Position numbers and translations under genes: made by a program. From NCBI GenBank assembly GCA_035041965.1, contig JAPYMA010003064.1:1-64000 (forward strand): a DNA stretch of 64,000 bases. The letters are read 5' to 3'. Positions 21,094 through 37,720 of the stretch are shown one piece after another (position 1 is the stretch's first letter; every line of letters starts with the position of its first letter). The notes under the pieces are model-generated. The model was not told the DNA's origin, did not search any database, and was given only the letters and a program-made list of their open reading frames with translations. The DNA is from Anisakis pegreffii (taxonomy: Eukaryota; Nematoda; Chromadorea; Rhabditida; Anisakidae).

Positions 21094-21155
21094 CTGCTTT
21101 CTCGCAGGAAGGTTGATTCTTGAGTCTGGGCGTTAGACCACTCGGCCATCCGTGC
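21094..21155 (-). pseudogene. tRNA-Leu(CAA) 5'-half fragment at array edge
   Basis: Matches the 5' exon and most of the intron of the CAA gene but lacks the 3' half and has substitutions and a deletion in the D-arm/anticodon-stem part. It marks the left boundary of the array and is followed by a full spacer B. Confidence 0.8.
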
Positions 21156-21251
21156 ATGTATATCTGTTCATTTAGGGGAACAATTGCTGAAAAATATCAT
21201 CAATTCCTCCTAAATGAATCCCAGGAAGAAAGAATCCAACACCAAAATGTT

Positions 21252-21368
21252 TGCACGGAGTGGGATTCGAACCCACGCATCGATAACGATACCAGAACGC
21301 CCATCCTGCTTTCTCGCAGGAAGATTGATTCTTGAGTCTGGCGCCTTAGACCACTCGGCCATCCGTGC
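21252..21368 (-). tRNA. tRNA-Leu(CAA) C1
   Basis: Reference copy. Acceptor GCACGGA/TCCGTGC pairs fully, anticodon stem is CCAGA/TCTGG, the loop reads CT-CAA-G and then a 33-nt intron follows; long variable arm typical of leucine tRNA; discriminator A. Confidence 0.95.
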
Positions 21369-21451
21369 TCCTGAAAACTATTGTCAATCATTCGATTTTC
21401 GGATCCACGATAAAAATTGCAAAGAGAAATATTCCAGAAGAAAAAGATTAT

Positions 21452-21567
21452 TGCACGGAGTGGGGTTCGAACCCACGCATCGATTACGATACCAGAACAC
21501 TCAGTTTCTGACGAACGCAGAAGCATTTTCTTAAGTCTGGCGCCTTAGACCACTCGGCCATCCGTGC
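21452..21567 (-). tRNA. tRNA-Leu(UAA) U1
   Basis: Reference copy. Same body as the CAA gene but the loop reads CT-TAA-G, with a different 32-nt intron. Its 5' flank is spacer A, so it is the first of a UAA-UAA pair. Confidence 0.95.
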
Positions 21568-21650
21568 TCCTGAAAACTATTGTCAATCATTCGATTTTCG
21601 GATCCACGATAAAAATTGCAAAGAGAAATATTCCAGAAGAAAAAGATTAT

Positions 21651-21766
21651 TGCACGGAGTGGGGTTCGAACCCACGCATCGATTACGATACCAGAACACT
21701 CAGTTTCTGACGAACGCAGAAGCATTTTCTTAAGTCTGGCGCCTTAGACCACTCGGCCATCCGTGC
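21651..21766 (-). tRNA. tRNA-Leu(UAA) U2
   Basis: Consensus; second of a UAA pair, 5' flank spacer B. Confidence 0.95.
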
Positions 21767-21862
21767 ATGTATATCTGTTCATTTAGGGGAACAATTGCTG
21801 AAAAATATCATCAATTCCTCCTAAAAGAATCCCAGGAAGATTGAATCCAACACCAAAATGTT

Positions 21863-21979
21863 TGCACGGAGTGGGATTCGAACCCACGCATCGATAACGA
21901 TACCAGAACGCCCATCCTGCTTTCTCGCAGGAAGATTGATTCTTGAGTCTGGCGCCTTAGACCACTCGGCCATCCGTGC
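21863..21979 (-). tRNA. tRNA-Leu(CAA) C2
   Basis: Consensus; 3' flank has the GATTGAATCC variant of spacer B. Confidence 0.95.
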
Positions 21980-22062
21980 TCCTGAAAACTATTGTCAATC
22001 ATTCGATTTTCGGATCCACGATAAAAATTGCAAAGAGAAATATTCCAGAAGAAAAAGATTAT

Positions 22063-22178
22063 TGCACGGAGTGGGGTTCGAACCCACGCATCGATTACGA
22101 TACCAGAACACTCAGTTTCTGACGAACGCAGAAGCATTTTCTTAAGTCTGGCGCCTTAGACCACTCGGCCATCCGTGC
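22063..22178 (-). tRNA. tRNA-Leu(UAA) U3
   Basis: Consensus copy. Confidence 0.95.
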
Positions 22179-22274
22179 ATGTATATCTGTTCATTTAGGG
22201 GAACAATTGCTGAAAAATATCATCAATTCCTCCTAAAAGAATCCCAGGAAGAAAGAATCCAACACCAAAATGTT

Positions 22275-22391
22275 TGCACGGAGTGGGATTCGAACCCACG
22301 CATCGATAACGATACCAGAACGCCCATCCTGCTTTCTCGCAGGAAGATTGATTCTTGAGTCTGGCGCCTTAGACCACTCGGCCATCCGTGC
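22275..22391 (-). tRNA. tRNA-Leu(CAA) C3
   Basis: Consensus copy. Confidence 0.95.
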
Positions 22392-22474
22392 TCCTGAAAA
22401 CTATTGTCAATCATTCGATTTTCGGATCCACGATAAAAATTGCAAAGAGAAATATTCCAGAAGAAAAAGATTAT

Positions 22475-22590
22475 TGCACGGAGTGGGGTTCGAACCCACG
22501 CATCGATTACGATACCAGAACACTCAGTTTCTGACGAACGCAGAAGCATTTTCTTAAGTCTGGCGCCTTAGACCACTCGGCCATCCGTGC
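22475..22590 (-). tRNA. tRNA-Leu(UAA) U4
   Basis: Consensus copy. Confidence 0.95.
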
Positions 22591-22686
22591 ATGTATATCT
22601 GTTCATTTAGGGGAACAATTGCTGAAAAATATCATCAATTCCTCCTAAAAGAATCCCAGGAAGAAAGAATCCAACACCAAAATGTT

Positions 22687-22803
22687 TGCACGGAGTGGGA
22701 TTCGAACCCACGCATCGATAACGATACCAGAACGCCCATCCTGCTTTCTCGCAGGAAGATTGATTCTTGAGTCTGGCGCCTTAGACCACTCGGCCATCCG
22801 TGC
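22687..22803 (-). tRNA. tRNA-Leu(CAA) C4
   Basis: Consensus copy. Confidence 0.95.
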
Positions 22804-22886
22804 TCCTGAAAACTATTGTCAATCATTCGATTTTCGGATCCACGATAAAAATTGCAAAGAGAAATATTCCAGAAGAAAAAGATTAT

Positions 22887-23002
22887 TGCACGGAGTGGGG
22901 TTCGAACCCACGCATCGATTACGATACCAGAACACTCAGTTTCTGACGAACGCAGAAGCATTTTCTTAAGTCTGGCGCCTTAGACCACTCGGCCATCCGT
23001 GC
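22887..23002 (-). tRNA. tRNA-Leu(UAA) U5
   Basis: Consensus copy. Confidence 0.95.
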
Positions 23003-23098
23003 ATGTATATCTGTTCATTTAGGGGAACAATTGCTGAAAAATATCATCAATTCCTCCTAAAAGAATCCCAGGAAGAAAGAATCCAACACCAAAATGTT

Positions 23099-23217
23099 TG
23101 CACGGAGTGGGATTCGAACCCACGCATCGATAACGATACCAGAACGCCCATCCTGCTTTCTCGCAGGAAGATTGATTCTTGAGTCTGGCGCCTTAGGACC
23201 ACTTCGGCCATCCGGGC
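23099..23217 (-). pseudogene. tRNA-Leu(CAA) C5, damaged
   Basis: Two single-base insertions in the D arm and a change to GCCCGGA in the acceptor 5' strand, which mispairs base pair 3. It shares the acceptor change and a spacer-A variant (AAAGTGAAAT) with C18, so both descend from one variant unit. Confidence 0.65.
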
Positions 23218-23300
23218 TCCTGAAAACTATTGTCAATCATTCGATTTTCGGATCCACGATAAAAATTGCAAAGTGAAATATTCCAGAAGAAAAAGATTAT

Positions 23301-23416
23301 TGCACGGAGTGGGGTTCGAACCCACGCATCGATTACGATACCAGAACACTCAGTTTCTGACGAACGCAGAAGCATTTTCTTAAGTCTGGCGCCTTAGACC
23401 ACTCGGCCATCCGTGC
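23301..23416 (-). tRNA. tRNA-Leu(UAA) U6
   Basis: Consensus copy. Confidence 0.95.
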
Positions 23417-23512
23417 ATGTATATCTGTTCATTTAGGGGAACAATTGCTGAAAAATATCATCAATTCCTCCTAAAAGAATCCCAGGAAGAAAGAATCCAA
23501 CACCAAAATGTT

Positions 23513-23629
23513 TGCACGGAGTGGGATTCGAACCCACGCATCGATAACGATACCAGAACGCCCATCCTGCTTTCTCGCAGGAAGATTGATTCTTGAGTCT
23601 GGCGCCTTAGACCACTCGGCCATCCGTGC
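23513..23629 (-). tRNA. tRNA-Leu(CAA) C6
   Basis: Consensus copy. Confidence 0.95.
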
Positions 23630-23712
23630 TCCTGAAAACTATTGTCAATCATTCGATTTTCGGATCCACGATAAAAATTGCAAAGAGAAATATTCCAGAA
23701 GAAAAAGATTAT

Positions 23713-23828
23713 TGCACGGAGTGGGGTTCGAACCCACGCATCGATTACGATACCAGAACACTCAGTTTCTGACGAACGCAGAAGCATTTTCTTAAGTCTG
23801 GCGCCTTAGACCACTCGGCCATCCGTGC
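23713..23828 (-). tRNA. tRNA-Leu(UAA) U7
   Basis: Consensus copy. Confidence 0.95.
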
Positions 23829-23924
23829 ATGTATATCTGTTCATTTAGGGGAACAATTGCTGAAAAATATCATCAATTCCTCCTAAAAGAATCCCAGGAA
23901 GAAAGAATCCAACACCAAAATGTT

Positions 23925-24041
23925 TGCACGGAGTGGGATTCGAACCCACGCATCGATAACGATACCAGAACGCCCATCCTGCTTTCTCGCAGGAAGATTG
24001 ATTCTTGAGTCTGGCGCCTTAGACCACTCGGCCATCCGTGC
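23925..24041 (-). tRNA. tRNA-Leu(CAA) C7
   Basis: Consensus copy. Confidence 0.95.
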
Positions 24042-24124
24042 TCCTGAAAACTATTGTCAATCATTCGATTTTCGGATCCACGATAAAAATTGCAAAGAGA
24101 AATATTCCAGAAGAAAAAGATTAT

Positions 24125-24240
24125 TGCACGGAGTGGGGTTCGAACCCACGCATCGATTACGATACCAGAACACTCAGTTTCTGACGAACGCAGAAGCATT
24201 TTCTTAAGTCTGGCGCCTTAGACCACTCGGCCATCCGTGC
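24125..24240 (-). tRNA. tRNA-Leu(UAA) U8
   Basis: Consensus; 5' flank spacer B has TTTCGGGG in place of TTTAGGGG. Confidence 0.95.
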
Positions 24241-24336
24241 ATGTATATCTGTTCATTTCGGGGAACAATTGCTGAAAAATATCATCAATTCCCCCTAAAA
24301 GAATCCCAGGAAGATTGAATCCAACACCAAAATGTT

Positions 24337-24453
24337 TGCACGGAGTGGGATTCGAACCCACGCATCGATAACGATACCAGAACGCCCATCCTGCTTTCTC
24401 GCAGGAAGATTGATTCTTGAGTCTGGCGCCTTAGACCACTCGGCCATCCGTGC
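24337..24453 (-). tRNA. tRNA-Leu(CAA) C8
   Basis: Consensus gene; both flanking spacers carry point variants. Confidence 0.95.
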
Positions 24454-24536
24454 TCCTGAAAACTATTGTCAATCATTCCATTTTCGGATCCACGATAAAA
24501 ATTGCAAAGAGAAATATTCCAGAAGAAAAAGATTAT

Positions 24537-24652
24537 TGCACGGAGTGGGGTTCGAACCCACGCATCGATTACGATACCAGAACACTCAGTTTCTGACGAA
24601 CGCAGAAGCATTTTCTTAAGTCTGGCGCCTTAGACCACTCGGCCATCCGTGC
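24537..24652 (-). tRNA. tRNA-Leu(UAA) U9
   Basis: Consensus copy. Confidence 0.95.
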
Positions 24653-24748
24653 ATGTATATCTGTTCATTTCGGGGAACAATTGCTGAAAAATATCATCAA
24701 TTCCTCCTAAAAGAATCCCAGGAAGAAAGAATCCAACACCAAAATGTT

Positions 24749-24865
24749 TGCACGGAGTGGGATTCGAACCCACGCATCGATAACGATACCAGAACGCCCA
24801 TCCTGCTTTCTCGCAGGAAGATTGATTCTTGAGTCTGGCGCCTTAGACCACTCGGCCATCCGTGC
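24749..24865 (-). tRNA. tRNA-Leu(CAA) C9
   Basis: Consensus copy. Confidence 0.95.
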
Positions 24866-24948
24866 TCCTGAAAACTATTGTCAATCATTCGATTTTCGGA
24901 TCCACGATAAAAATTGCAAAGAGAAATATTCCAGAAGAAAAAGATTAT

Positions 24949-25064
24949 TGCACGGAGTGGGGTTCGAACCCACGCATCGATTACGATACCAGAACACTCA
25001 GTTTCTGACGAACGCAGAAGCATTTTCTTAAGTCTGGCGCCTTAGACCACTCGGCCATCCGTGC
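24949..25064 (-). tRNA. tRNA-Leu(UAA) U10
   Basis: Consensus copy. Confidence 0.95.
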
Positions 25065-25160
25065 ATGTATATCTGTTCATTTAGGGGAACAATTGCTGAA
25101 AAATATCATCAATTCCTCCTAAAAGAATCCCAGGAAGAAAGAATCCAACACCAAAATGTT

Positions 25161-25277
25161 TGCACGGAGTGGGATTCGAACCCACGCATCGATAACGATA
25201 CCAGAACGCCCATCCTGCTTTCTCGCAGGAAGATTGATTCTTGAGTCTGGCGCCTTAGACCACTCGGCCATCCGTGC
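25161..25277 (-). tRNA. tRNA-Leu(CAA) C10
   Basis: Consensus gene beside a damaged spacer A. Confidence 0.95.
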
Positions 25278-25358
25278 TCCTGAAAACTATTGTCAATCAT
25301 TCCGATTTTCGGATCCCGATAAAAATTGCAAGAAATATTCCAGAAGAGAACAGATTAT

Positions 25359-25476
25359 TGCACGGAGTGGGGTTCAGACCCACGCACGCATCGATTACGA
25401 TACCAGAACACTCAGTTTCTGACGAACGCAGAAGCATTTTCAAGTCTGGCGCCTTAGACCACTCGGCCATCCGTGC
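25359..25476 (-). pseudogene. tRNA-Leu(UAA) U11, damaged
   Basis: The T loop is changed and a 4-base duplication lies next to the T stem. A deletion at the anticodon removes part of TAAG, so the loop no longer reads UAA. Confidence 0.8.
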
Positions 25477-25572
25477 ATGTATATCTGTTCATTTCGGGGA
25501 ACAATTGCTGAAAAATATCATCAATTCCTCCTAAATGAATCCCAGGAAGATTGAATCCAACACCAAAATGTT

Positions 25573-25689
25573 TGCACGGAGTGGGATTCGAACCCACGCA
25601 TCGATAACGATACCAGAACGCCCATCCTGCTTTCTCGCAGGAAGATTGATTCTTGAGTCTGGCGCCTTAGACCACTCGGCCATCCGTGC
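25573..25689 (-). tRNA. tRNA-Leu(CAA) C11
   Basis: Consensus copy. Confidence 0.95.
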
Positions 25690-25772
25690 TCCTGAAAACT
25701 ATTGTCAATCATTCGATTTTCGGATCCACGATAAAAATTGCAAAGAGAAATATTCCAGAAGAAAAAGATTAT

Positions 25773-25888
25773 TGCACGGAGTGGGGTTCGAACCCACGCA
25801 TCGATTACGATACCAGAACACTCAGTTTCTGACGAACGCAGAAGCATTTTCTTAAGTCTGGCGCCTTAGACCACTCGGCCATCCGTGC
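25773..25888 (-). tRNA. tRNA-Leu(UAA) U12
   Basis: Consensus copy. Confidence 0.95.
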
Positions 25889-25984
25889 ATGTATATCTGT
25901 TCATTTAGGGGAACAATTGCTGAAAAATATCATCAATTCCTCCTAAAAGAATCCCAGGAAGAAAGAATCCAACACCAAAATGTT

Positions 25985-26101
25985 TGCACGGAGTGGGATT
26001 CGAACCCACGCATCGATAACGATACCAGAACGCCCATCCTGCTTTCTCGCAGGAAGATTGATTCTTGAGTCTGGCGCCTTAGACCACTCGGCCATCCGTG
26101 C
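25985..26101 (-). tRNA. tRNA-Leu(CAA) C12
   Basis: Consensus copy. Confidence 0.95.
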
Positions 26102-26184
26102 TCCTGAAAACTATTGTCAATCATTCCATTTTCGGATCCACGATAAAAATTGCAAAGAGAAATATTCCAGAAGATAAAGATTAT

Positions 26185-26300
26185 TGCACGGAGTGGGGTT
26201 CGAACCCACGCATCGATTACGATACCGGAACACTCAGTTTCTGACGAACGCAGAAGCATTTTCCTAAGTCTGGCGCCTTAGACCACTCGGCCATCCGTGC
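26185..26300 (-). tRNA. tRNA-Leu with UAG anticodon (UAA-type copy U13)
   Basis: One A-to-G change turns the loop CT-TAA-G into CT-TAG-G, predicting a reader of CUA/CUG codons that is still leucine. A second change creates one mismatch (A29-C41) in the anticodon stem. Rest of the gene, intron and terminator are intact. Either a new isoacceptor or an early pseudogene. Confidence 0.7.
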
Positions 26301-26396
26301 ATGTATATCTGTTCATTTAGGGGAACAATTGCTGAAAAATATCATCAATTCCCCCTAAAAGAATCCCAGGAAGATTGAATCCAACACCAAAATGTT

Positions 26397-26513
26397 TGCA
26401 CGGAGTGGGATTCGAACCCACGCATCGATAACGATACCAGAACGCCCATCCTGCTTTCTCGCAGGAAGATTGATTCTTGAGTCTGGCGCCTTAGACCACT
26501 CGGCCATCCGTGC
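26397..26513 (-). tRNA. tRNA-Leu(CAA) C13
   Basis: Consensus copy. Confidence 0.95.
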
Positions 26514-26596
26514 TCCTGAAAACTATTGTCAATCATTCGATTTTCGGATCCACGATAAAAATTGCAAAGAGAAATATTCCAGAAGAAAAAGATTAT

Positions 26597-26712
26597 TGCA
26601 CGGAGTGGGGTTCGAACCCACGCATCGATTACGATACCAGAACACTCAGTTTCTGACGAACGCAGAAGCATTTTCTTAAGTCTGGCGCCTTAGACCACTC
26701 GGCCATCCGTGC
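26597..26712 (-). tRNA. tRNA-Leu(UAA) U14
   Basis: Consensus copy. Confidence 0.95.
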
Positions 26713-26808
26713 ATGTATATCTGTTCATTTAGGGGAACAATTGCTGAAAAATATCATCAATTCCTCCTAAAAGAATCCCAGGAAGAAAGAATCCAACACC
26801 AAAATGTT

Positions 26809-26925
26809 TGCACGGAGTGGGATTCGAACCCACGCATCGATAACGATACCAGAACGCCCATCCTGCTTTCTCGCAGGAAGATTGATTCTTGAGTCTGGCG
26901 CCTTAGACCACTCGGCCATCCGTGC
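26809..26925 (-). tRNA. tRNA-Leu(CAA) C14
   Basis: Consensus copy. Confidence 0.95.
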
Positions 26926-27008
26926 TCCTGAAAACTATTGTCAATCATTCGATTTTCGGATCCACGATAAAAATTGCAAAGAGAAATATTCCAGAAGAAA
27001 AAGATTAT

Positions 27009-27124
27009 TGCACGGAGTGGGGTTCGAACCCACGCATCGATTACGATACCAGAACACTCAGTTTCTGACGAACGCAGAAGCATTTTCTTAAGTCTGGCGC
27101 CTTAGACCACTCGGCCATCCGTGC
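27009..27124 (-). tRNA. tRNA-Leu(UAA) U15
   Basis: Consensus; first of a UAA pair. Confidence 0.95.
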
Positions 27125-27207
27125 TCCTGAAAACTATTGTCAATCATTCGATTTTCGGATCCACGATAAAAATTGCAAAGAGAAATATTCCAGAAGAAAA
27201 AGATTAT

Positions 27208-27323
27208 TGCACGGAGTGGGGTTCGAACCCACGCATCGATTACGATACCAGAACACTCAGTTTCTGACGAACGCAGAAGCATTTTCTTAAGTCTGGCGCC
27301 TTAGACCACTCGGCCATCCGTGC
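27208..27323 (-). tRNA. tRNA-Leu(UAA) U16
   Basis: Consensus; second of a UAA pair. Confidence 0.95.
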
Positions 27324-27419
27324 ATGTATATCTGTTCATTTAGGGGAACAATTGCTGAAAAATATCATCAATTCCTCCTAAAAGAATCCCAGGAAGAAAG
27401 AATCCAACACCAAAATGTT

Positions 27420-27536
27420 TGCACGGAGTGGGATTCGAACCCACGCATCGATAACGATACCAGAACGCCCATCCTGCTTTCTCGCAGGAAGATTGATTCT
27501 TGAGTCTGGCGCCTTAGACCACTCGGCCATCCGTGC
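27420..27536 (-). tRNA. tRNA-Leu(CAA) C15
   Basis: Consensus copy. Confidence 0.95.
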
Positions 27537-27619
27537 TCCTGAAAACTATTGTCAATCATTCGATTTTCGGATCCACGATAAAAATTGCAAAGAGAAATAT
27601 TCCAGAAGAAAAAGATTAT

Positions 27620-27735
27620 TGCACGGAGTGGGGTTCGAACCCACGCATCGATTACGATACCAGAACACTCAGTTTCTGACGAACGCAGAAGCATTTTCTT
27701 AAGTCTGGCGCCTTAGACCACTCGGCCATCCGTGC
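27620..27735 (-). tRNA. tRNA-Leu(UAA) U17
   Basis: Consensus copy. Confidence 0.95.
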
Positions 27736-27831
27736 ATGTATATCTGTTCATTTAGGGGAACAATTGCTGAAAAATATCATCAATTCCTCCTAAAAGAATC
27801 CCAGGAAGAAAGAATCCAACACCAAAATGTT

Positions 27832-27948
27832 TGCACGGAGTGGGATTCGAACCCACGCATCGATAACGATACCAGAACGCCCATCCTGCTTTCTCGCAGG
27901 AAGATTGATTCTTGAGTCTGGCGCCTTAGACCACTCGGCCATCCGTGC
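27832..27948 (-). tRNA. tRNA-Leu(CAA) C16
   Basis: Consensus gene; spacer A carries TTGTGAATC, a variant shared with C27. Confidence 0.95.
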
Positions 27949-28031
27949 TCCTGAAAACTATTGTGAATCATTCGATTTTCGGATCCACGATAAAAATTGC
28001 AAAGAGAAATATTCCAGAAGAAAAAGATTAT

Positions 28032-28147
28032 TGCACGGAGTGGGGTTCGAACCCACGCATCGATTACGATACCAGAACACTCAGTTTCTGACGAACGCAG
28101 AAGCATTTTCTTAAGTCTGGCGCCTTAGACCACTCGGCCATCCGTGC
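28032..28147 (-). tRNA. tRNA-Leu(UAA) U18
   Basis: Consensus; first of a UAA pair. Confidence 0.95.
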
Positions 28148-28230
28148 TCCTGAAAACTATTGTCAATCATTCGATTTTCGGATCCACGATAAAAATTGCA
28201 AAGAGAAATATTCCAGAAGAAAAAGATTAT

Positions 28231-28346
28231 TGCACGGAGTGGGGTTCGAACCCACGCATCGATTACGATACCAGAACACTCAGTTTCTGACGAACGCAGA
28301 AGCATTTTCTTAAGTCTGGCGCCTTAGACCACTCGGCCATCCGTGC
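28231..28346 (-). tRNA. tRNA-Leu(UAA) U19
   Basis: Consensus; second of a UAA pair. Confidence 0.95.
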
Positions 28347-28442
28347 ATGTATATCTGTTCATTTAGGGGAACAATTGCTGAAAAATATCATCAATTCCTC
28401 CTAAAAGAATCCCAGGAAGAAAGAATCCAACACCAAAATGTT

Positions 28443-28559
28443 TGCACGGAGTGGGATTCGAACCCACGCATCGATAACGATACCAGAACGCCCATCCTGC
28501 TTTCTCGCAGGAAGATTGATTCTTGAGTCTGGCGCCTTAGACCACTCGGCCATCCGTGC
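28443..28559 (-). tRNA. tRNA-Leu(CAA) C17
   Basis: Consensus copy. Confidence 0.95.
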
Positions 28560-28642
28560 TCCTGAAAACTATTGTCAATCATTCGATTTTCGGATCCACG
28601 ATAAAAATTGCAAAGAGAAATATTCCAGAAGAAAAAGATTAT

Positions 28643-28758
28643 TGCACGGAGTGGGGTTCGAACCCACGCATCGATTACGATACCAGAACACTCAGTTTCT
28701 GACGAACGCAGAAGCATTTTCTTAAGTCTGGCGCCTTAGACCACTCGGCCATCCGTGC
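28643..28758 (-). tRNA. tRNA-Leu(UAA) U20
   Basis: Consensus copy. Confidence 0.95.
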
Positions 28759-28854
28759 ATGTATATCTGTTCATTTAGGGGAACAATTGCTGAAAAATAT
28801 CATCAATTCCTCCTAAAAGAATCCCAGGAAGAAAGAATCCAACACCAAAATGTT

Positions 28855-28971
28855 TGCACGGAGTGGGATTCGAACCCACGCATCGATAACGATACCAGAA
28901 CGCCCATCCTGCTTTCTCGCAGGAAGATTGATTCTTGAGTCTGGCGCCTTAGACCACTCGGCCATCCGGGC
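28855..28971 (-). tRNA. tRNA-Leu(CAA) C18, acceptor-stem mismatch
   Basis: Full length with an intact anticodon, but the 5' strand reads GCCCGGA, mispairing the third acceptor base pair. Function doubtful. Confidence 0.65.
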
Positions 28972-29054
28972 TCCTGAAAACTATTGTCAATCATTCGATT
29001 TTCGGATCCACGATAAAAATTGCAAAGTGAAATATTCCAGAAGAAAAGGATTAT

Positions 29055-29123
29055 TGCACGGAGTGGGGTTCGAACCCACGCATCGATCACGTCTGGCGCC
29101 TTAGACAACTCGGCCATCCGTGC
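29055..29123 (-). pseudogene. tRNA-Leu(UAA) U21, internal deletion
   Basis: Only 69 bp remain: acceptor, T arm and D arm are kept, but the anticodon loop, intron and variable-arm side are deleted. Confidence 0.85.
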
Positions 29124-29206
29124 TCCTGAAAACTATTGTCAGTCATTCCATTTTCGGATCCACGATAAAAGTTGCAAAGAGAAATATTCCAGAAGATAAA
29201 GGTTGT

Positions 29207-29323
29207 TGCACGGAGTGGAGGTTCGAACCACGCATCGATTGACGATACCAGAACACTCAGTTTCCGGCGAACGCAGAAGCATTTGCTTAAGTCTGGCGCC
29301 TTAGACCACTCGGCCATCCGTGC
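29207..29323 (-). pseudogene. tRNA-Leu(UAA) U22, damaged T arm
   Basis: Insertions and deletions in the T stem and next to the variable arm, plus several substitutions in the intron. The anticodon is still UAA. Confidence 0.65.
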
Positions 29324-29419: not shown

Positions 29420-29536
29420 TGCACGGAGTGGGATTCGAACCCACGCATCGATAACGATACCAGAACGCCCATCCTGCTTTCTCGCAGGAAGATTGATTCT
29501 TGAGTCTGGCGCCTTAGACCACTCGGCCATCCGTGC
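29420..29536 (-). tRNA. tRNA-Leu(CAA) C19
   Basis: Consensus copy. Confidence 0.95.
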
Positions 29537-29619
29537 TCCTGAAAACTATTGTCAATCATTCGATTTTCGGATCCACGATAAAAATTGCAAAGAGAAATAT
29601 TCCAGAAGAAAAAGATTAT

Positions 29620-29735
29620 TGCACGGAGTGGGGTTCGAACCCACGCATCGATTACGATACCAGAACACTCAGTTTCTGACGAACGCAGAAGCATTTTCTT
29701 AAGTCTGGCGCCTTAGACCACTCGGCCATCCGTGC
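29620..29735 (-). tRNA. tRNA-Leu(UAA) U23
   Basis: Consensus; first of a UAA pair. Confidence 0.95.
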
Positions 29736-29818
29736 TCCTGAAAACTATTGTCAATCATTCGATTTTCGGATCCACGATAAAAATTGCAAAGAGAAATATT
29801 CCAGAAGAAAAAGATTAT

Positions 29819-29934
29819 TGCACGGAGTGGGGTTCGAACCCACGCATCGATTACGATACCAGAACACTCAGTTTCTGACGAACGCAGAAGCATTTTCTTA
29901 AGTCTGGCGCCTTAGACCACTCGGCCATCCGTGC
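29819..29934 (-). tRNA. tRNA-Leu(UAA) U24
   Basis: Consensus; second of a UAA pair. Confidence 0.95.
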
Positions 29935-30030
29935 ATGTATATCTGTTCATTTAGGGGAACAATTGCTGAAAAATATCATCAATTCCTCCTAAAAGAATCC
30001 CAGGAAGAAAGAATCCAACACCAAAATGTT

Positions 30031-30147
30031 TGCACGGAGTGGGATTCGAACCCACGCATCGATAACGATACCAGAACGCCCATCCTGCTTTCTCGCAGGA
30101 AGATTGATTCTTGAGTCTGGCGCCTTAGACCACTCGGCCATCCGTGC
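30031..30147 (-). tRNA. tRNA-Leu(CAA) C20
   Basis: Consensus copy. Confidence 0.95.
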
Positions 30148-30230
30148 TCCTGAAAACTATTGTCAATCATTCGATTTTCGGATCCACGATAAAAATTGCA
30201 AAGAGAAATATTCCAGAAGAAAAAGATTAT

Positions 30231-30346
30231 TGCACGGAGTGGGGTTCGAACCCACGCATCGATTACGATACCAGAACACTCAGTTTCTGACGAACGCAGA
30301 AGCATTTTCTTAAGTCTGGCGCCTTAGACCACTCGGCCATCCGTGC
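30231..30346 (-). tRNA. tRNA-Leu(UAA) U25
   Basis: Consensus copy. Confidence 0.95.
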
Positions 30347-30442
30347 ATGTATATCTGTTCATTTAGGGGAACAATTGCTGAAAAATATCATCAATTCCTC
30401 CTAAAAGAATCCCAGGAAGAAAGAATCCAACACCAAAATGTT

Positions 30443-30559
30443 TGCACGGAGTGGGATTCGAACCCACGCATCGATAACGATACCAGAACGCCCATCCTGC
30501 TTTCTCGCAGGAAGATTGATTCTTGAGTCTGGCGCCTTAGACCACTCGGCCATCCGTGC
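30443..30559 (-). tRNA. tRNA-Leu(CAA) C21
   Basis: Consensus copy. Confidence 0.95.
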
Positions 30560-30642
30560 TCCTGAAAACTATTGTCAATCATTCGATTTTCGGATCCACG
30601 ATAAAAATTGCAAAGAGAAATATTCCAGAAGAAAAAGATTAT

Positions 30643-30758
30643 TGCACGGAGTGGGGTTCGAACCCACGCATCGATTACGATACCAGAACACTCAGTTTCT
30701 GACGAACGCAGAAGCATTTTCTTAAGTCTGGCGCCTTAGACCACTCGGCCATCCGTGC
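30643..30758 (-). tRNA. tRNA-Leu(UAA) U26
   Basis: Consensus copy. Confidence 0.95.
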
Positions 30759-30854
30759 ATGTATATCTGTTCATTTAGGGGAACAATTGCTGAAAAATAT
30801 CATCAATTCCTCCTAAAAGAATCCCAGGAAGAAAGAATCCAACACCAAAATGTT

Positions 30855-30971
30855 TGCACGGAGTGGGATTCGAACCCACGCATCGATAACGATACCAGAA
30901 CGCCCATCCTGCTTTCTCGCAGGAAGATTGATTCTTGAGTCTGGCGCCTTAGACCACTCGGCCATCCGTGC
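30855..30971 (-). tRNA. tRNA-Leu(CAA) C22, recombinant flank
   Basis: Gene is consensus, but its 5' flank is spacer B instead of spacer A and the expected UAA partner is missing. This is the product of a crossover in the shared 5' half of the two gene types. Confidence 0.95.
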
Positions 30972-31067
30972 ATGTATATCTGTTCATTTAGGGGAACAAT
31001 TGCTGAAAAATATCATCAATTCCTCCTAAAAGAATCCCAGGAAGAAAGAATCCAACACCAAAATGTT

Positions 31068-31184
31068 TGCACGGAGTGGGATTCGAACCCACGCATCGAT
31101 AACGATACCAGAACGCCCATCCTGCTTTCTCGCAGGAAGATTGATTCTTGAGTCTGGCGCCTTAGACCACTCGGCCATCCGTGC
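31068..31184 (-). tRNA. tRNA-Leu(CAA) C23
   Basis: Consensus copy. Confidence 0.95.
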
Positions 31185-31267
31185 TCCTGAAAACTATTGT
31201 CAATCATTCGATTTTCGGATCCACGATAAAAATTGCAAAGAGAAATATTCCAGAAGAAAAAGATTAT

Positions 31268-31383
31268 TGCACGGAGTGGGGTTCGAACCCACGCATCGAT
31301 TACGATACCAGAACACTCAGTTTCTGACGAACGCAGAAGCATTTTCTTAAGTCTGGCGCCTTAGACCACTCGGCCATCCGTGC
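31268..31383 (-). tRNA. tRNA-Leu(UAA) U27
   Basis: Consensus copy. Confidence 0.95.
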
Positions 31384-31479
31384 ATGTATATCTGTTCATT
31401 TAGGGGAACAATTGCTGAAAAATATCATCAATTCCTCCTAAAAGAATCCCAGGAAGAAAGAATCCAACACCAAAATGTT

Positions 31480-31596
31480 TGCACGGAGTGGGATTCGAAC
31501 CCACGCATCGATAACGATACCAGAACGCCCATCCTGCTTTCTCGCAGGAAGATTGATTCTTGAGTCTGGCGCCTTAGACCACTCGGCCATCCGTGC
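31480..31596 (-). tRNA. tRNA-Leu(CAA) C24
   Basis: Consensus copy. Confidence 0.95.
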
Positions 31597-31679
31597 TCCT
31601 GAAAACTATTGTCAATCATTCGATTTTCGGATCCACGATAAAAATTGCAAAGAGAAATATTCCAGAAGAAAAAGATTAT

Positions 31680-31795
31680 TGCACGGAGTGGGGTTCGAAC
31701 CCACGCATCGATTACGATACCAGAACACTCAGTTTCTGACGAACGCAGAAGCATTTTCTTAAGTCTGGCGCCTTAGACCACTCGGCCATCCGTGC
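31680..31795 (-). tRNA. tRNA-Leu(UAA) U28
   Basis: Consensus; first of a UAA pair. Confidence 0.95.
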
Positions 31796-31878
31796 TCCTG
31801 AAAACTATTGTCAATCATTCGATTTTCGGATCCACGATAAAAATTGCAAAGAGAAATATTCCAGAAGAAAAAGATTAT

Positions 31879-31994
31879 TGCACGGAGTGGGGTTCGAACC
31901 CACGCATCGATTACGATACCAGAACACTCAGTTTCTGACGAACGCAGAAGCATTTTCTTAAGTCTGGCGCCTTAGACCACTCGGCCATCCGTGC
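31879..31994 (-). tRNA. tRNA-Leu(UAA) U29
   Basis: Consensus; second of a UAA pair. Confidence 0.95.
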
Positions 31995-32091
31995 ATGTAT
32001 ATCTGTTCATTTAGGGGAACAATTGCTGAAAAATATCATCAATTCCTCCTAAAAGAATCCCAGGAAGAAACGAATCCAACACCAAAATGTT

Positions 32092-32137
32092 TGCACGGAG
32101 TGGGATTCGAAGCCACGCATCGATAACGATACCAAGA
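32092..32137 (-). pseudogene. tRNA-Leu(CAA) C25, 3'-half fragment
   Basis: Only the T-arm and variable-arm side remains, with a substitution in the T stem. The 5' half and nearly all of spacer A are deleted. Confidence 0.8.
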
Positions 32138-32153
32138 ACGAAGAAAAAGATTA

Positions 32154-32271
32154 TCGCCACGGACGGGGTTCGGAACCCACGCATCGATTACGATACCAGA
32201 ACACTCAGTTTCTGACGAACGCAGAAGCATTTTCTTAAGTCTGGCGCCTTAGACCACTCGGCCATCCGTGC
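32154..32271 (-). pseudogene. tRNA-Leu(UAA) U30, damaged 3' end
   Basis: 5' half and UAA anticodon intact, but the acceptor 3' strand and T arm carry several small insertions and substitutions. Confidence 0.7.
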
Positions 32272-32367
32272 ATGTATATCTGTTCATTTAGGGGAACAAT
32301 TGCTGAAAAATATCATCAATTCCTCCTAAATGAATCCCAGGAAGAAAGAATCCAACACCAAAATGTT

Positions 32368-32484
32368 TGCACGGAGTGGGATTCGAACCCACGCATCGAT
32401 AACGATACCAGAACGCCCATCCTGCTTTCTCGCAGGAAGATTGATTCTTGAGTCTGGCGCCTTAGACCACTCGGCCATCCGTGC
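32368..32484 (-). tRNA. tRNA-Leu(CAA) C26
   Basis: Consensus copy. Confidence 0.95.
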
Positions 32485-32567
32485 TCCTGAAAACTATTGT
32501 CAATCATTCGATTTTCGGATCCACGATAAAAATTGCAAAGAGAAATATTCCAGAAGAAAAAGATTAT

Positions 32568-32683
32568 TGCACGGAGTGGGGTTCGAACCCACGCATCGAT
32601 TACGATACCAGAACACTCAGTTTCTGACGAACGCAGAAGCATTTTCTTAAGTCTGGCGCCTTAGACCACTCGGCCATCCGTGC
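32568..32683 (-). tRNA. tRNA-Leu(UAA) U31
   Basis: Consensus copy. Confidence 0.95.
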
Positions 32684-32779
32684 ATGTATATCTGTTCATT
32701 TAGGGGAACAATTGCTGAAAAATATCATCAATTCCTCCTAAAAGAATCCCAGGAAGAAGGAATCCAACACCAAAATGTT

Positions 32780-32896
32780 TGCACGGAGTGGGATTCGAAC
32801 CCACGCATCGATAACGATACCAGAACGCCCATCCTGCTTTCTCGCAGGAAGATTGATTCTTGAGTCTGGCGCCTTAGACCACTCGGCCATCCGTGC
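32780..32896 (-). tRNA. tRNA-Leu(CAA) C27
   Basis: Consensus gene with the TTGTGAATC spacer-A variant. Confidence 0.95.
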
Positions 32897-32980
32897 TCCT
32901 GAAAACTATTGTGAATCATTCGATTTTCGGATCCACGATAAAAATTGCAAAAGAGAAATATTCCAGAAGAAAAAGATTAT

Positions 32981-33088
32981 TGCTCGTGAGTGGGTTCTGA
33001 ACCCGCGCATCGATTACGACAGCCATGAACACCCAGTTTCTGACGAACGCAGTAAGTCTGGCGCCTTAGACCACTCGGCCATCCGTGC
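32981..33088 (-). pseudogene. tRNA-Leu(UAA) U32, decayed
   Basis: Acceptor, T arm and variable arm carry many changes, and a deletion removes part of the intron at the anticodon side. Confidence 0.8.
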
Positions 33089-33184
33089 ATGTATATCTGT
33101 TCATTTAGGGGAACAATTGCTGAAAAATATCATCAATTCCTCCTAAAAGAATCCCAGGAAGAAAGAATCCAACACCAAAATGTT

Positions 33185-33301
33185 TGCACGGAGTGGGATT
33201 CGAACCCACGCATCGATAACGATACCAGAACGCCCATCCTGCTTTCTCGCAGGAAGATTGATTCTTGAGTCTGGCGCCTTAGACCACTCGGCCATCCGTG
33301 C
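33185..33301 (-). tRNA. tRNA-Leu(CAA) C28
   Basis: Consensus copy. Confidence 0.95.
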
Positions 33302-33384
33302 TCCTGAAAACTATTGTCAATCATTCGATTTTCGGATCCACGATAAAAATTGCAAAGAGAAATATTCCAGAAGAAAAAGATTAT

Positions 33385-33500
33385 TGCACGGAGTGGGGTT
33401 CGAACCCACGCATCGATTACGATACCAGAACACTCAGTTTCTGACGAACGCAGAAGCATTTTCTTAAGTCTGGCGCCTTAGACCACTCGGCCATCCGTGC
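33385..33500 (-). tRNA. tRNA-Leu(UAA) U33
   Basis: Consensus copy. Confidence 0.95.
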
Positions 33501-33596
33501 ATGTATATCTGTTCATTTAGGGGAACAATTGCTGAAAAATATCATCAATTCCTCCTAAAAGAATCCCAGGAAGAAAGAATCCAACACCAAAATGTT

Positions 33597-33713
33597 TGCA
33601 CGGAGTGGGATTCGAACCCACGCATCGATAACGATACCAGAACGCCCATCCTGCTTTCTCGCAGGAAGATTGATTCTTGAGTCTGGCGCCTTAGACCACT
33701 CGGCCATCCGTGC
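33597..33713 (-). tRNA. tRNA-Leu(CAA) C29
   Basis: Consensus copy. Confidence 0.95.
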
Positions 33714-33796
33714 TCCTGAAAACTATTGTCAATCATTCGATTTTCGGATCCACGATAAAAATTGCAAAGAGAAATATTCCAGAAGAAAAAGATTAT

Positions 33797-33912
33797 TGCA
33801 CGGAGTGGGGTTCGAACCCACGCATCGATTACGATACCAGAACACTCAGTTTCTGACGAACGCAGAAGCATTTTCTTAAGTCTGGCGCCTTAGACCACTC
33901 GGCCATCCGTGC
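33797..33912 (-). tRNA. tRNA-Leu(UAA) U34
   Basis: Consensus; first of a UAA pair. Confidence 0.95.
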
Positions 33913-33995
33913 TCCTGAAAACTATTGTCAATCATTCGATTTTCGGATCCACGATAAAAATTGCAAAGAGAAATATTCCAGAAGAAAAAGATTAT

Positions 33996-34111
33996 TGCAC
34001 GGAGTGGGGTTCGAACCCACGCATCGATTACGATACCAGAACACTCAGTTTCTGACGAACGCAGAAGCATTTTCTTAAGTCTGGCGCCTTAGACCACTCG
34101 GCCATCCGTGC
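33996..34111 (-). tRNA. tRNA-Leu(UAA) U35
   Basis: Consensus; second of a UAA pair. Confidence 0.95.
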
Positions 34112-34207
34112 ATGTATATCTGTTCATTTAGGGGAACAATTGCTGAAAAATATCATCAATTCCTCCTAAATGAATCCCAGGAAGAAAGAATCCAACACCA
34201 AAATGTT

Positions 34208-34331
34208 TGCACGGAGTGGGATTCGAACCCACGCCATCGATGACGATACCAGAACGCCCATCCTGCTACTCTCGCAGGAGAGATCGATTCTGCGGAAGGT
34301 CTGGCGCCTCAGACCACTCGGCCATCCGTGC
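34208..34331 (-). pseudogene. tRNA-Leu(CAA) C30, decayed
   Basis: Insertions in the variable arm and intron and substitutions across the anticodon loop, so the CAA anticodon is lost. Confidence 0.8.
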
Positions 34332-34408
34332 TCTGAAAACTATTGTCAATCACGTTCGTTTTCGGATCCACGATAAAATTGCAAAGAGAAATATTCAGAA
34401 AAAGATTG

Positions 34409-34525
34409 TGCACTGGAGTGGGGTTCGAACCCACGCATCGATTACGATACCAGAACACTCAGTTTCTGACGAACGCAGAAGCATTTTCTTAAGTCTGGCG
34501 CCTTAGACCACTCGGCCATCCGTGC
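34409..34525 (-). pseudogene. tRNA-Leu(UAA) U36, acceptor insertion
   Basis: One extra base inside the acceptor 3' strand; the rest, including the UAA anticodon and intron, is consensus. May retain partial function. Confidence 0.5.
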
Positions 34526-34621
34526 ATGTATATCTGTTCATTTAGGGGAACAATTGCTGAAAAATATCATCAATTCCTCCTAAATGAATCCCAGGAAGAA
34601 AGAATCCAACACCAAAATGTT

Positions 34622-34745
34622 TGCACGGAGTGGGATTCGAACCCACGCATCGATAACGATACCAGAACGCCCATCCTGCTTTCTCGCAGGAAGCAGGAAG
34701 ATTGATTCTTGAGTCTGGCGCCTTAGACCACTCGGCCATCCGTGC
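34622..34745 (-). tRNA. tRNA-Leu(CAA) C31, longer intron
   Basis: Exons are consensus; a 7-bp tandem duplication (CAGGAAG type) lengthens the intron. Confidence 0.85.
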
Positions 34746-34827
34746 TCCTGAAAACTATTGTCAATCATTCGATTTTCGGATCCACGATAAAAATTGCAAG
34801 AGAAATATTCCAGAAGAAAAAGATTAT

Positions 34828-34943
34828 TGCACGGAGTGGGGTTCGAACCCACGCATCGATTACGATACCAGAACACTCAGTTTCTGACGAACGCAGAAGC
34901 ATTTTCTTAAGTCTGGCGCCTTAGACCACTCGGCCATCCGTGC
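34828..34943 (-). tRNA. tRNA-Leu(UAA) U37
   Basis: Consensus copy. Confidence 0.95.
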
Positions 34944-35039
34944 ATGTATATCTGTTCATTTAGGGGAACAATTGCTGAAAAATATCATCAATTCCTCCTA
35001 AAAGAATCCCAGGAAGAAAGAATCCAACACCAAAATGTT

Positions 35040-35156
35040 TGCACGGAGTGGGATTCGAACCCACGCATCGATAACGATACCAGAACGCCCATCCTGCTTT
35101 CTCGCAGGAAGATTGATTCTTGAGTCTGGCGCCTTAGACCACTCGGCCATCCGTGC
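35040..35156 (-). tRNA. tRNA-Leu(CAA) C32
   Basis: Consensus copy. Confidence 0.95.
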
Positions 35157-35239
35157 TCCTGAAAACTATTGTCAATCATTCGATTTTCGGATCCACGATA
35201 AAAATTGCAAAGAGAAATATTCCAGAAGAAAAAGATTAT

Positions 35240-35355
35240 TGCACGGAGTGGGGTTCGAACCCACGCATCGATTACGATACCAGAACACTCAGTTTCTGAC
35301 GAACGCAGAAGCATTTTCTTAAGTCTGGCGCCTTAGACCACTCGGCCATCCGTGC
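35240..35355 (-). tRNA. tRNA-Leu(UAA) U38
   Basis: Consensus copy. Confidence 0.95.
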
Positions 35356-35451
35356 ATGTATATCTGTTCATTTCGGTTAACAATTGCTGAAAAATATCAT
35401 CAATTCCTCCTAAAAGAATCCCAGGAAGAAAGAATCCAACACCAAAATGTT

Positions 35452-35568
35452 TGCACGGAGTGGGATTCGAACCCACGCATCGATAACGATACCAGAACGC
35501 CCATCCTGCTTTCTCGCAGGAAGATTGATTCTTGAGTCTGGCGCCTTAGACCACTCGGCCATCCGTGC
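35452..35568 (-). tRNA. tRNA-Leu(CAA) C33
   Basis: Consensus copy. Confidence 0.95.
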
Positions 35569-35651
35569 TCCTGAAAACTATTGTCAATCATTCGATTTTC
35601 GGATCCACGATAAAAATTGCAAAGAGAAATATTCCAGAAGAAAAAGATTAT

Positions 35652-35765
35652 TGCACGGAGTGGGTTCGAACCCACGCATCGATTACGATACCAGAACACT
35701 CAGTTTTGCCGAACGCAGAAGCATTTTTCTAAGTCTGGCGCCTTAGACCACTCGGCCATCCGTGC
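35652..35765 (-). pseudogene. UAA-type copy U39 with UAG anticodon and short T loop
   Basis: The loop reads CT-TAG-A after small indels, one base is missing from the T loop, and the intron is altered. First of a UAA pair. Probably non-functional. Confidence 0.6.
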
Positions 35766-35848
35766 TCCTGAAAACTATTGTCAATCATTCGATTTTCGGA
35801 TCCACGATAAAAATTGCAAAGAGAAATATTCCAGAAGAAAAAGATTAT

Positions 35849-35964
35849 TGCACGGAGTGGGGTTCGAACCCACGCATCGATTACGATACCAGAACACTCA
35901 GTTTCTGACGAACGCAGAAGCATTTTCTTAAGTCTGGCGCCTTAGACCACTCGGCCATCCGTGC
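35849..35964 (-). tRNA. tRNA-Leu(UAA) U40
   Basis: Consensus; second of a UAA pair. Confidence 0.95.
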
Positions 35965-36060
35965 ATGTATATCTGTTCATTTCGGGGAACAATTGCTGAA
36001 AAATATCATCAATTCCTCCTAAAAGAATCCCAGGAAGAAAGAATCCAACACCAAAATGTT

Positions 36061-36177
36061 TGCACGGAGTGGGATTCGAACCCACGCATCGATAACGATA
36101 CCAGAACGCCCATCCTGCTTTCTCGCAGGAAGATTGATTCTTGAGTCTGGCGCCTTAGACCACTCGGCCATCCGTGC
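36061..36177 (-). tRNA. tRNA-Leu(CAA) C34
   Basis: Consensus copy. Confidence 0.95.
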
Positions 36178-36260
36178 TCCTGAAAACTATTGTCAATCAT
36201 TCGATTTTCGGATCCACGATAAAAATTGCAAAGAGAAATATTCCAGAAGAAAAAGATTAT

Positions 36261-36376
36261 TGCACGGAGTGGGGTTCGAACCCACGCATCGATTACGATA
36301 CCAGAACACTCAGTTTCTGACGAACGCAGAAGCATTTTCTTAAGTCTGGCGCCTTAGACCACTCGGCCATCCGTGC
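36261..36376 (-). tRNA. tRNA-Leu(UAA) U41
   Basis: Consensus copy. Confidence 0.95.
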
Positions 36377-36472
36377 ATGTATATCTGTTCATTTAGGGGA
36401 ACAATTGCTGAAAAATATCATCAATTCCTCCTAAAAGAATCCCAGGAAGAAAGAATCCAACACCAAAATGTT

Positions 36473-36589
36473 TGCACGGAGTGGGATTCGAACCCACGCA
36501 TCGATAACGATACCAGAACGCCCATCCTGCTTTCTCGCAGGAAGATTGATTCTTGAGTCTGGCGCCTTAGACCACTCGGCCATCCGTGC
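36473..36589 (-). tRNA. tRNA-Leu(CAA) C35
   Basis: Consensus copy. Confidence 0.95.
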
Positions 36590-36672
36590 TCCTGAAAACT
36601 ATTGTCAATCATTCGATTTTCGGATCCACGATAAAAATTGCAAAGAGAAATATTCCAGAAGAAAAAGATTAT

Positions 36673-36788
36673 TGCACGGAGTGGGGTTCGAACCCACGCA
36701 TCGATTACGATACCAGAACACTCAGTTTCTGACGAACGCAGAAGCATTTTCTTAAGTCTGGCGCCTTAGACCACTCGGCCATCCGTGC
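36673..36788 (-). tRNA. tRNA-Leu(UAA) U42
   Basis: Consensus copy. Confidence 0.95.
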
Positions 36789-36884
36789 ATGTATATCTGT
36801 TCATTTAGGGGAACAATTGCTGAAAAATATCATCAATTCCTCCTAAAAGAATCCCAGGAAGAAAGAATCCAACACCAAAATGTT

Positions 36885-37001
36885 TGCACGGAGTGGGATT
36901 CGAACCCACGCATCGATAACGATACCAGAACGCCCATCCTGCTTTCTCGCAGGAAGATTGATTCTTGAGTCTGGCGCCTTAGACCACTCGGCCATCCGTG
37001 C
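36885..37001 (-). tRNA. tRNA-Leu(CAA) C36
   Basis: Consensus copy. Confidence 0.95.
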
Positions 37002-37084
37002 TCCTGAAAACTATTGTCAATCATTCGATTTTCGGATCCACGATAAAAATTGCAAAGAGAAATATTCCAGAAGAAAAAGATTAT

Positions 37085-37200
37085 TGCACGGAGTGGGGTT
37101 CGAACCCACGCATCGATTACGATACCAGAACACTCAGTTTCTGACGAACGCAGAAGCATTTTCTTAAGTCTGGCGCCTTAGACCACTCGGCCATCCGTGC
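37085..37200 (-). tRNA. tRNA-Leu(UAA) U43
   Basis: Consensus; last gene before the assembly gap. Confidence 0.95.
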
Positions 37201-37234
37201 ATGTATATCTGTTCATTTAGGGGAACAATTGCTG

Positions 37235-37334
37235 NNNNNNNNNNNNNNNNNNNNNNNNNNNNNNNNNNNNNNNNNNNNNNNNNNNNNNNNNNNNNNNNNN
37301 NNNNNNNNNNNNNNNNNNNNNNNNNNNNNNNNNN
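37235..37334. other. Assembly gap, 100 N
   Basis: Exactly 100 N inside spacer B. About 40 bp would suffice to complete the spacer, so this is a placeholder of unknown true length and may hide further units. Confidence 0.95.
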
Positions 37335-37356
37335 AAGAATCCAACACCAAAATGTT

Positions 37357-37473
37357 TGCACGGAGTGGGATTCGAACCCACGCATCGATAACGATACCAG
37401 AACGCCCATCCTGCTTTCTCGCAGGAAGATTGATTCTTGAGTCTGGCGCCTTAGACCACTCGGCCATCCGTGC
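37357..37473 (-). tRNA. tRNA-Leu(CAA) C37
   Basis: Consensus; first gene after the gap. Confidence 0.95.
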
Positions 37474-37556
37474 TCCTGAAAACTATTGTCAATCATTCGA
37501 TTTTCGGATCCACGATAAAAATTGCAAAGAGAAATATTCCAGAAGAAAAAGATTAT

Positions 37557-37672
37557 TGCACGGAGTGGGGTTCGAACCCACGCATCGATTACGATACCAG
37601 AACACTCAGTTTCTGACGAACGCAGAAGCATTTTCTTAAGTCTGGCGCCTTAGACCACTCGGCCATCCGTGC
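37557..37672 (-). tRNA. tRNA-Leu(UAA) U44
   Basis: Consensus; right-most gene, whose 5' flank is a diverged spacer B. Confidence 0.95.
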
Positions 37673-37720
37673 ATGTTTATCCGTTCATTTAGGGAAGCAA
37701 TTGCTAAAAAATATCAAAAT

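Follow-up and report, generated by a model that had tools for sequence, protein, structure and literature searches.

Tandem transfer RNA gene arrays with mixed wobble bases in the nematode Anisakis pegreffii

Why would a nematode genome hold dozens of near-identical leucine transfer RNA (tRNA) genes side by side, in two isoacceptor kinds that decode UUA and UUG? The question is raised by a 64,000-bp window of Anisakis pegreffii DNA, bases 1–64,000 of contig C1736 (75,647 bp; assembly of 122.7 Mb in 1,740 contigs), in which 81 tRNA-Leu units follow one another head-to-tail, all on the minus strand, at 21,094–37,672. Analysis of the remaining contigs uncovered tandem tRNA arrays for further amino acids, and in six amino-acid families the genes are uniform at nearly every base yet mixed at wobble position 34.

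The leucine array and its two unit types

Scanning for A boxes and cutting at gene starts yielded 80 units, and a missed unit at 23,099–23,217 brought the count to 81. Infernal reports 74 tRNA matches above the Rfam gathering score (best 52.3 bits), 74 of 74 on the minus strand. ARAGORN finds 76 tRNA genes in the window when introns are allowed and none in its bacterial setting, because the array genes carry introns. The exact consensus body occurs in 69 genes (36 with anticodon UAA and 33 with CAA), in 69 of 69 cases with a run of four or more T within 30 nt downstream, and the array holds 77 B-box sites when one mismatch is allowed. From these sequence signals, each of the 69 is predicted to form its own RNA polymerase III (Pol III) unit. 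A leucine anticodon, a long variable arm that folds as a hairpin in both kinds, and an intron after base 37 are all present, and a chance pattern is excluded, with B-box pair patterns giving zero or one match in a reversed control. These results bear out the first-pass annotation in its count of at least 81 loci on one strand, about 69 of them consensus-like, in its A and B boxes and oligo-T terminators, and in the two isoacceptors, whose decoding of UUA and UUG is supported by anticodons UAA and CAA. The extent it proposed, 21,094 to 37,720, holds at its start but not at its end: the last full gene stops at 37,672, and the unit at 21,155 is truncated.

The 412-bp period it described is that of a dimer. 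Its CAA unit measures 213 bp, of which the gene takes up 117 bp (including a 33-nt intron) and the spacer 96 bp; its UAA unit measures 199 bp, split into a 116-bp gene (32-nt intron included) and an 83-bp spacer. Best-fit typing assigns 44 units to UAA, counting the degenerate unit at 32,271 as UAA, and 37 to CAA, and 52 of the 81 whole units match one or other consensus sequence exactly. The dimer order is interrupted by nine UAA-UAA and two CAA-CAA neighbours; alternation is strong all the same (70 runs versus a shuffle mean of 41.2, with 0 of 20,000 shuffles as high). The mature CAA and UAA sequences differ at 3 of 83 bases, and their introns align alike at only 20 of 36 positions. About ten units with indels or clustered changes lie beside perfect units and may represent either decay or unpolished sequence. 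The copy number is not final, because a 100-N gap falls within the array. Intron limits of the two consensus genes listed here were set after base 37.

21,094–37,672, minus strand: tandem array of 81 tRNA-Leu units (44 UAA, 37 CAA by best fit; A-box scan, Infernal, ARAGORN)
21,863–21,979, minus strand: consensus tRNA-Leu(CAA) gene, 117 bp with a 33-nt intron (Infernal); 5′ exon 21,942–21,979, intron 21,909–21,941, 3′ exon 21,863–21,908
22,063–22,178, minus strand: consensus tRNA-Leu(UAA) gene, 116 bp with a 32-nt intron (Infernal); 5′ exon 22,141–22,178, intron 22,109–22,140, 3′ exon 22,063–22,108
21,767–21,862, minus strand: 96-bp spacer after the CAA gene, with a T4 terminator
21,980–22,062, minus strand: 83-bp spacer after the UAA gene, with a T5 terminator
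21,094–21,155, minus strand: final unit, cut short to the 5′ part of a CAA gene
37,235–37,334, no strand: assembly gap of 100 N within the array
23,003–23,217, minus strand: degenerate CAA unit with small insertions
25,278–25,476, minus strand: degenerate UAA unit
28,972–29,123, minus strand: UAA unit with 47 bp deleted across the anticodon and intron
29,124–29,323, minus strand: degenerate UAA unit
31,995–32,271, minus strand: degenerate unit of 277 bp
32,897–33,088, minus strand: degenerate UAA unit
34,112–34,331, minus strand: degenerate CAA unit
34,332–34,525, minus strand: degenerate UAA unit
35,569–35,765, minus strand: degenerate UAA unit

Arrays for twelve amino acids and their wobble base

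At least 17 tandem tRNA arrays, on 16 contigs and for 12 amino acids, were recovered from the assembly. The list below is a sample and a lower bound, drawn from among the matches listed, and the Thr arrays on C794 and C801 are counted as two, even though they may be opposite ends of a single array.

C1736 (window): Leu UAA/CAA
C13: Val AAC/CAC/UAC, 172 bp, 60 genes read, one of them 3 kb away
C41: Glu CUC, 48 genes, mostly 163 bp
C28: Tyr GUA, seven genes plus one truncated, 164–165 bp
C309: Arg UCG, 47 genes plus one CCG, 205–215 bp
C44: Arg ACG, about 70 among the matches listed, 185 bp
C491: Arg UCU, 14 in the piece read, 175 bp
C794 and C801: Thr AGU/CGU/UGU, 152 and 203 bp
C1733, 145.3–158.7 kb, minus strand: Ser AGA/CGA, 67 genes in two pieces
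C190: Ser UGA, 12 in the piece read, 173 bp
C1634: Ala CGC/UGC, 162 bp
C1733, 89.5–96.1 kb, plus strand: Ala AGC, 160 bp
C1680: Gln UUG/CUG, 154–163 bp
C76: Ile AAU, 161 bp
C405: Lys CUU, 172 bp
C1704: Gly UCC, about 172 bp

Across the whole assembly, the B-box motif GGTTCGANYCC occurs 2,022 times and its reversed control 74 times. The number of genes is somewhat smaller, because the palindromic B boxes of Leu-UAA genes are counted once per strand (the window has 40 plus-strand sites of this sort). Same-strand B-box pairs spaced 151–212 bp apart number 1,161 (control 1), with 830 at 151–181 bp (control 0) and 331 at 182–212 bp (control 1). GTTCAA-type pairs add a further 117 (control 0), although 9 of 100 among the matches listed are isolated pairs dispersed over different contigs and may have arisen by chance. 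All 55 Rfam matches in five sampled loci are tRNA. In the pieces read, each of the 17 arrays serves one amino acid; the apparent exceptions, one labelled His and one Tyr, prove to be a truncated Tyr gene and two fused Thr genes.

Isoacceptors are mixed in six arrays, those for Leu, Val, Thr, Ser, Ala, and Gln. In the latter five, the commonest bodies of the anticodon classes differ only at base 34 (in Val also at base 16, C or T). Heterozygosity peaks at base 34 in Val (0.579 versus a mean over sites of 0.024; 60 genes), Thr (0.628 versus 0.011; 29 standard-length genes of 31 ARAGORN hits), Ser (0.495 versus 0.008; 67 genes), and Gln (0.473 versus 0.009; 13 genes). The base 34 counts are A32 C21 U7 in Val, A10 C7 U15 in Thr, C9 U9 in Ala, U42 C35 in Leu, A30 C37 in Ser, and U8 C5 in Gln, and none of the 267 genes has G34 (Val 60, Thr 32, Ala 18, Leu 77, Ser 67, Gln 13). 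No change at bases 35–36 was seen in the 190 Val, Thr, Ala, Ser, and Gln genes, nor in the array genes for Arg (48), Glu (48), or Ile (13). The Arg-UCG array contains one CCG among 48 genes, and the remaining arrays show one anticodon each in the pieces read.

The anticodons alternate in Leu and Ser, are somewhat clumped in Val, and follow a random order in Thr on C801. In Thr, Val, and Ser, and once in Ala, an identical 3′ spacer is shared by genes with two or three different anticodons. Exchange, conversion, or repeated mutation has therefore reassorted spacers and anticodons.

The first-pass annotation had called a cluster for UUA and UUG decoders unusual and had raised selection for their supply. 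Within this genome such an array is not exceptional, since 16 further arrays serve 11 other amino acids, and we have set a special need for UUA and UUG decoders aside as a general cause. Within the window's own exons, which belong to an MCM protein and an M24 peptidase, 28 of 63 leucine codons are UUR (592 codons in total), a small sample that shows no extreme demand. The first of these genes neighbours the array and the second lies further left:

16,257–18,837, minus strand: MCM exons (Pfam MCM and MCM_OB), which we take to be MCM6
6,871–10,173, plus strand: M24 peptidase exons (Pfam AMP_N and Peptidase_M24), presumably of a prolidase

Several other repeats were met in passing. Two tandem copies of a 436-bp unit (93% matching) lie outside the array at 1,436–2,300 of the window. 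On contig C1733, the Ala(AGC) and Ser(AGA/CGA) arrays are separate and lie on opposite strands, plus and minus respectively. Genes for tRNA-Lys(UUU) on C936, C1023, and C535 form pairs 171–172 bp apart, some of them inverted relative to each other, and not one long array. The 5S ribosomal RNA genes on C14, C181, and C1485 repeat at about 552 or 560 bp, and each repeat on C14 includes, on the same strand, what we take to be the core of spliced-leader (SL) RNA SL1. Copies of COX1 on C496 and C446 are interrupted in the mitochondrial code and are perhaps nuclear copies or poor sequence; a short COX1 piece lies on C1735. Of the four COX1 matches listed that carry a species name, that to the nematode Toxocara canis is closest, at 70%, which makes a nematode host very likely.

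Probable concerted evolution and its rivals

The explanation that we favour, and hold to be probable from the pattern of sequence variation, is that the arrays are working tRNA families under concerted evolution, in which copies would be kept uniform by unequal crossing-over and gene conversion while selection acts on the genes and retains a mixed wobble set. In the leucine array, the 5′ exons of the two kinds are identical except at base 34 and would offer homology for unequal exchange, which by adding and removing units could have produced the nine UAA-UAA and two CAA-CAA neighbours. Homogenization likely acts on a whole isoacceptor family at once, because bodies differ only at base 34 and spacers are shared across anticodons, with selection holding bases 35–36 and a mixed set at base 34. 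The expected outcome is a large supply of matched isoacceptor tRNAs, and the array tRNAs are predicted to be transcribed by Pol III, spliced, and charged.

Comparison of genes with spacers speaks to selection on the genes. In modal-length units (33 Arg, 57 Val, 10 Ala, 66 Leu), with anchor bases excluded, variable sites are more frequent in the spacer than in the gene for Arg (36/141 versus 1/56, P = 3e-5), Ala (9/90 versus 0/61, P = 0.01), and Leu-CAA (7/96 versus 0/99, P = 0.006). Because spacers vary more in these three sets, purifying selection on the array genes is likely, with the reservation that the Leu introns do not vary either. Uniformity is also a property of the array itself: against the 52 of 81 units that equal a consensus, dispersed copies reach 73–88% identity, one short 97% piece excepted. 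These matches came from a search with the dimer unit that passes over very common words. A tRNA-derived short interspersed element was considered and rejected, in that the nine dimer-unit matches among those listed sit in gene parts or edges and none spans the spacer.

The array CAA intron matches its best two dispersed CAA genes at 25/34 and 28/39 positions, versus 20/36 for the array UAA intron, and the array CAA 3′ exon is nearest to UAA genes (44/46, versus 41–42 of 46–47). With few differing sites, a mosaic origin for the array CAA gene is no more than suggested. Dispersed Leu-UAA genes on C1060 and C266 have the array's mature sequence with an intron that is much shorter (about 17 nt) or absent.

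Several observations weigh against the favoured explanation. The spacer excess in Val is not significant (17/99 versus 4/57 in the gene, P = 0.09), and Leu-UAA units vary in neither part (spacer 0/83, gene 0/98). Introns and exons are equally invariant in Leu, so that in this family selection on the mature tRNA is not separable from recency. Anticodon and spacer are strongly linked in Ser, where one spacer goes with 24 A and 2 C and another with 12 C and 1 A, and recurrent mutation at base 34 could be an alternative source of shared spacers. Another anticodon was read in 3 of 77 Leu genes when the anticodon was left free in the pattern, and the counts at bases 34–36 omit copies too decayed to match the flanks or to be called. 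Finally, the one exact tRNA-Trp anticodon arm tried (another arm sequence is possible) matches the assembly once, so not every tRNA need have an array.

The strongest competitor is neutral, satellite-like expansion, in which tRNA genes stall replication, copies grow by unequal exchange without benefit and stay mostly silent, and identity reflects recency. It would account for near-identity that extends to introns and Leu-UAA spacers. Trp and Ser are arrayed in Nippostrongylus, versus the single Trp-arm match here, which suggests a lineage-specific choice of tRNA; and the Entamoeba authors find no link between array size and codon use (PMC2652664). We nevertheless consider it unlikely, given that genes vary less than spacers in three of five unit sets tested, that bases 35–36 are unchanged in 190 genes and G34 is missing from 267, and that arrays exist for 12 amino acids. 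Selfish or neutral expansion that yields working genes is a live rival.

An assembly effect, with copy number inflated or deflated and degenerate units representing unpolished reads, is improbable. The gap within the leucine array, the clustered indels adjoining perfect units, and the position of 11 of the 17 arrays within about 165 bp of a contig end are what it would lead one to expect, but distinct spacer variants occur in irregular unit order, the same kind of array recurs on 16 contigs, and contig ends suggest arrays that were broken rather than invented. Least credible of all is a structural role for Pol III-dense DNA, whether as a chromatin boundary, as proposed for a human tRNA repeat (PMC4041453), or as a substitute for chromosome ends, as proposed for Entamoeba arrays (PMC2652664), since arrays with long flanks lie inside contigs (the window's, those on C405 and C1704, and both on C1733) and the wobble mix would be left unexplained.

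A further and more tentative generalization can be put forward, namely that many tRNA families of this animal have become "codon-box arrays", each of which brings together several or all of the isoacceptors for one amino acid, in near-identical genes with the wobble base as the main variable site. Concerted evolution is usually discussed for genes meant to be identical, and the arrays here combine uniformity at nearly every gene base with a mixture at the base of codon choice. Were codon-box arrays real, the ratio of wobble variants would be a copy-number trait, changeable by unequal crossing-over in one step, and decoding could be tuned without altering synthetase recognition. The arrays make it testable how isoacceptor sets retain their identity elements as the anticodon ratio shifts, and whether codon bias tracks array composition. 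In addition, nematode tRNA gene numbers obtained from short-read assemblies may be underestimates, because such arrays break even the present assembly.

Comparison with known tRNA clusters

The closest counterpart is in another nematode, Nippostrongylus brasiliensis, where long reads revealed "VeCTRs" with close to 150 copies of tRNA-Trp in units of about 200 bp and 90 copies of tRNA-Ser with an 80-bp spacer (PMC5765664). Both species have tens of head-to-tail tRNA units (150–215 bp here) and 5S-SL repeats. They differ in that the text consulted on N. brasiliensis names two tRNA arrays and no mixed anticodons, whereas the arrays of A. pegreffii number at least 17, cover 12 amino acids, and in six cases interleave isoacceptors, and in that Trp is arrayed there while the Trp arm tried here matches once. 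The same source states that C. elegans tRNA genes are never so massively repeated. Published figures for Caenorhabditis are 820–1,587 tRNA loci per species (PMC2888827), and those for C. elegans are 820 predictions in an older scan and 721 in a newer one (PMC8450103).

In Entamoeba, too, a large share of tRNA genes lies in uniform tandem arrays, for which the authors propose concerted evolution (PMC2652664). There, units contain up to five tRNA genes, some with 5S RNA, and short tandem repeats occur in two species; a unit combining several amino acids was not seen in the pieces read here, where each array serves one. Nematostella and teleost fish resemble A. pegreffii in having clusters of fifty and more tRNA genes, although pairs in Nematostella and zebrafish mostly join different amino acids (PMC2888827), unlike the near-identical, single-amino-acid arrays here. 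The Arabidopsis Ser/Tyr cluster is likewise tandemly repeated, but it combines two amino acids and, according to the abstract, is silenced in most tissues (PMC12308677).

Isoacceptor remolding by anticodon mutation and the concerted evolution of tRNAs are both already known (PMC4981973). No report of arrays mixed at the wobble base was found in the open-licence PMC literature, to the extent that its text was accessible. Massive tRNA arrays have thus been published before, in Nippostrongylus and Entamoeba, and it is the wobble-mixed pattern across amino-acid families that we regard as new.

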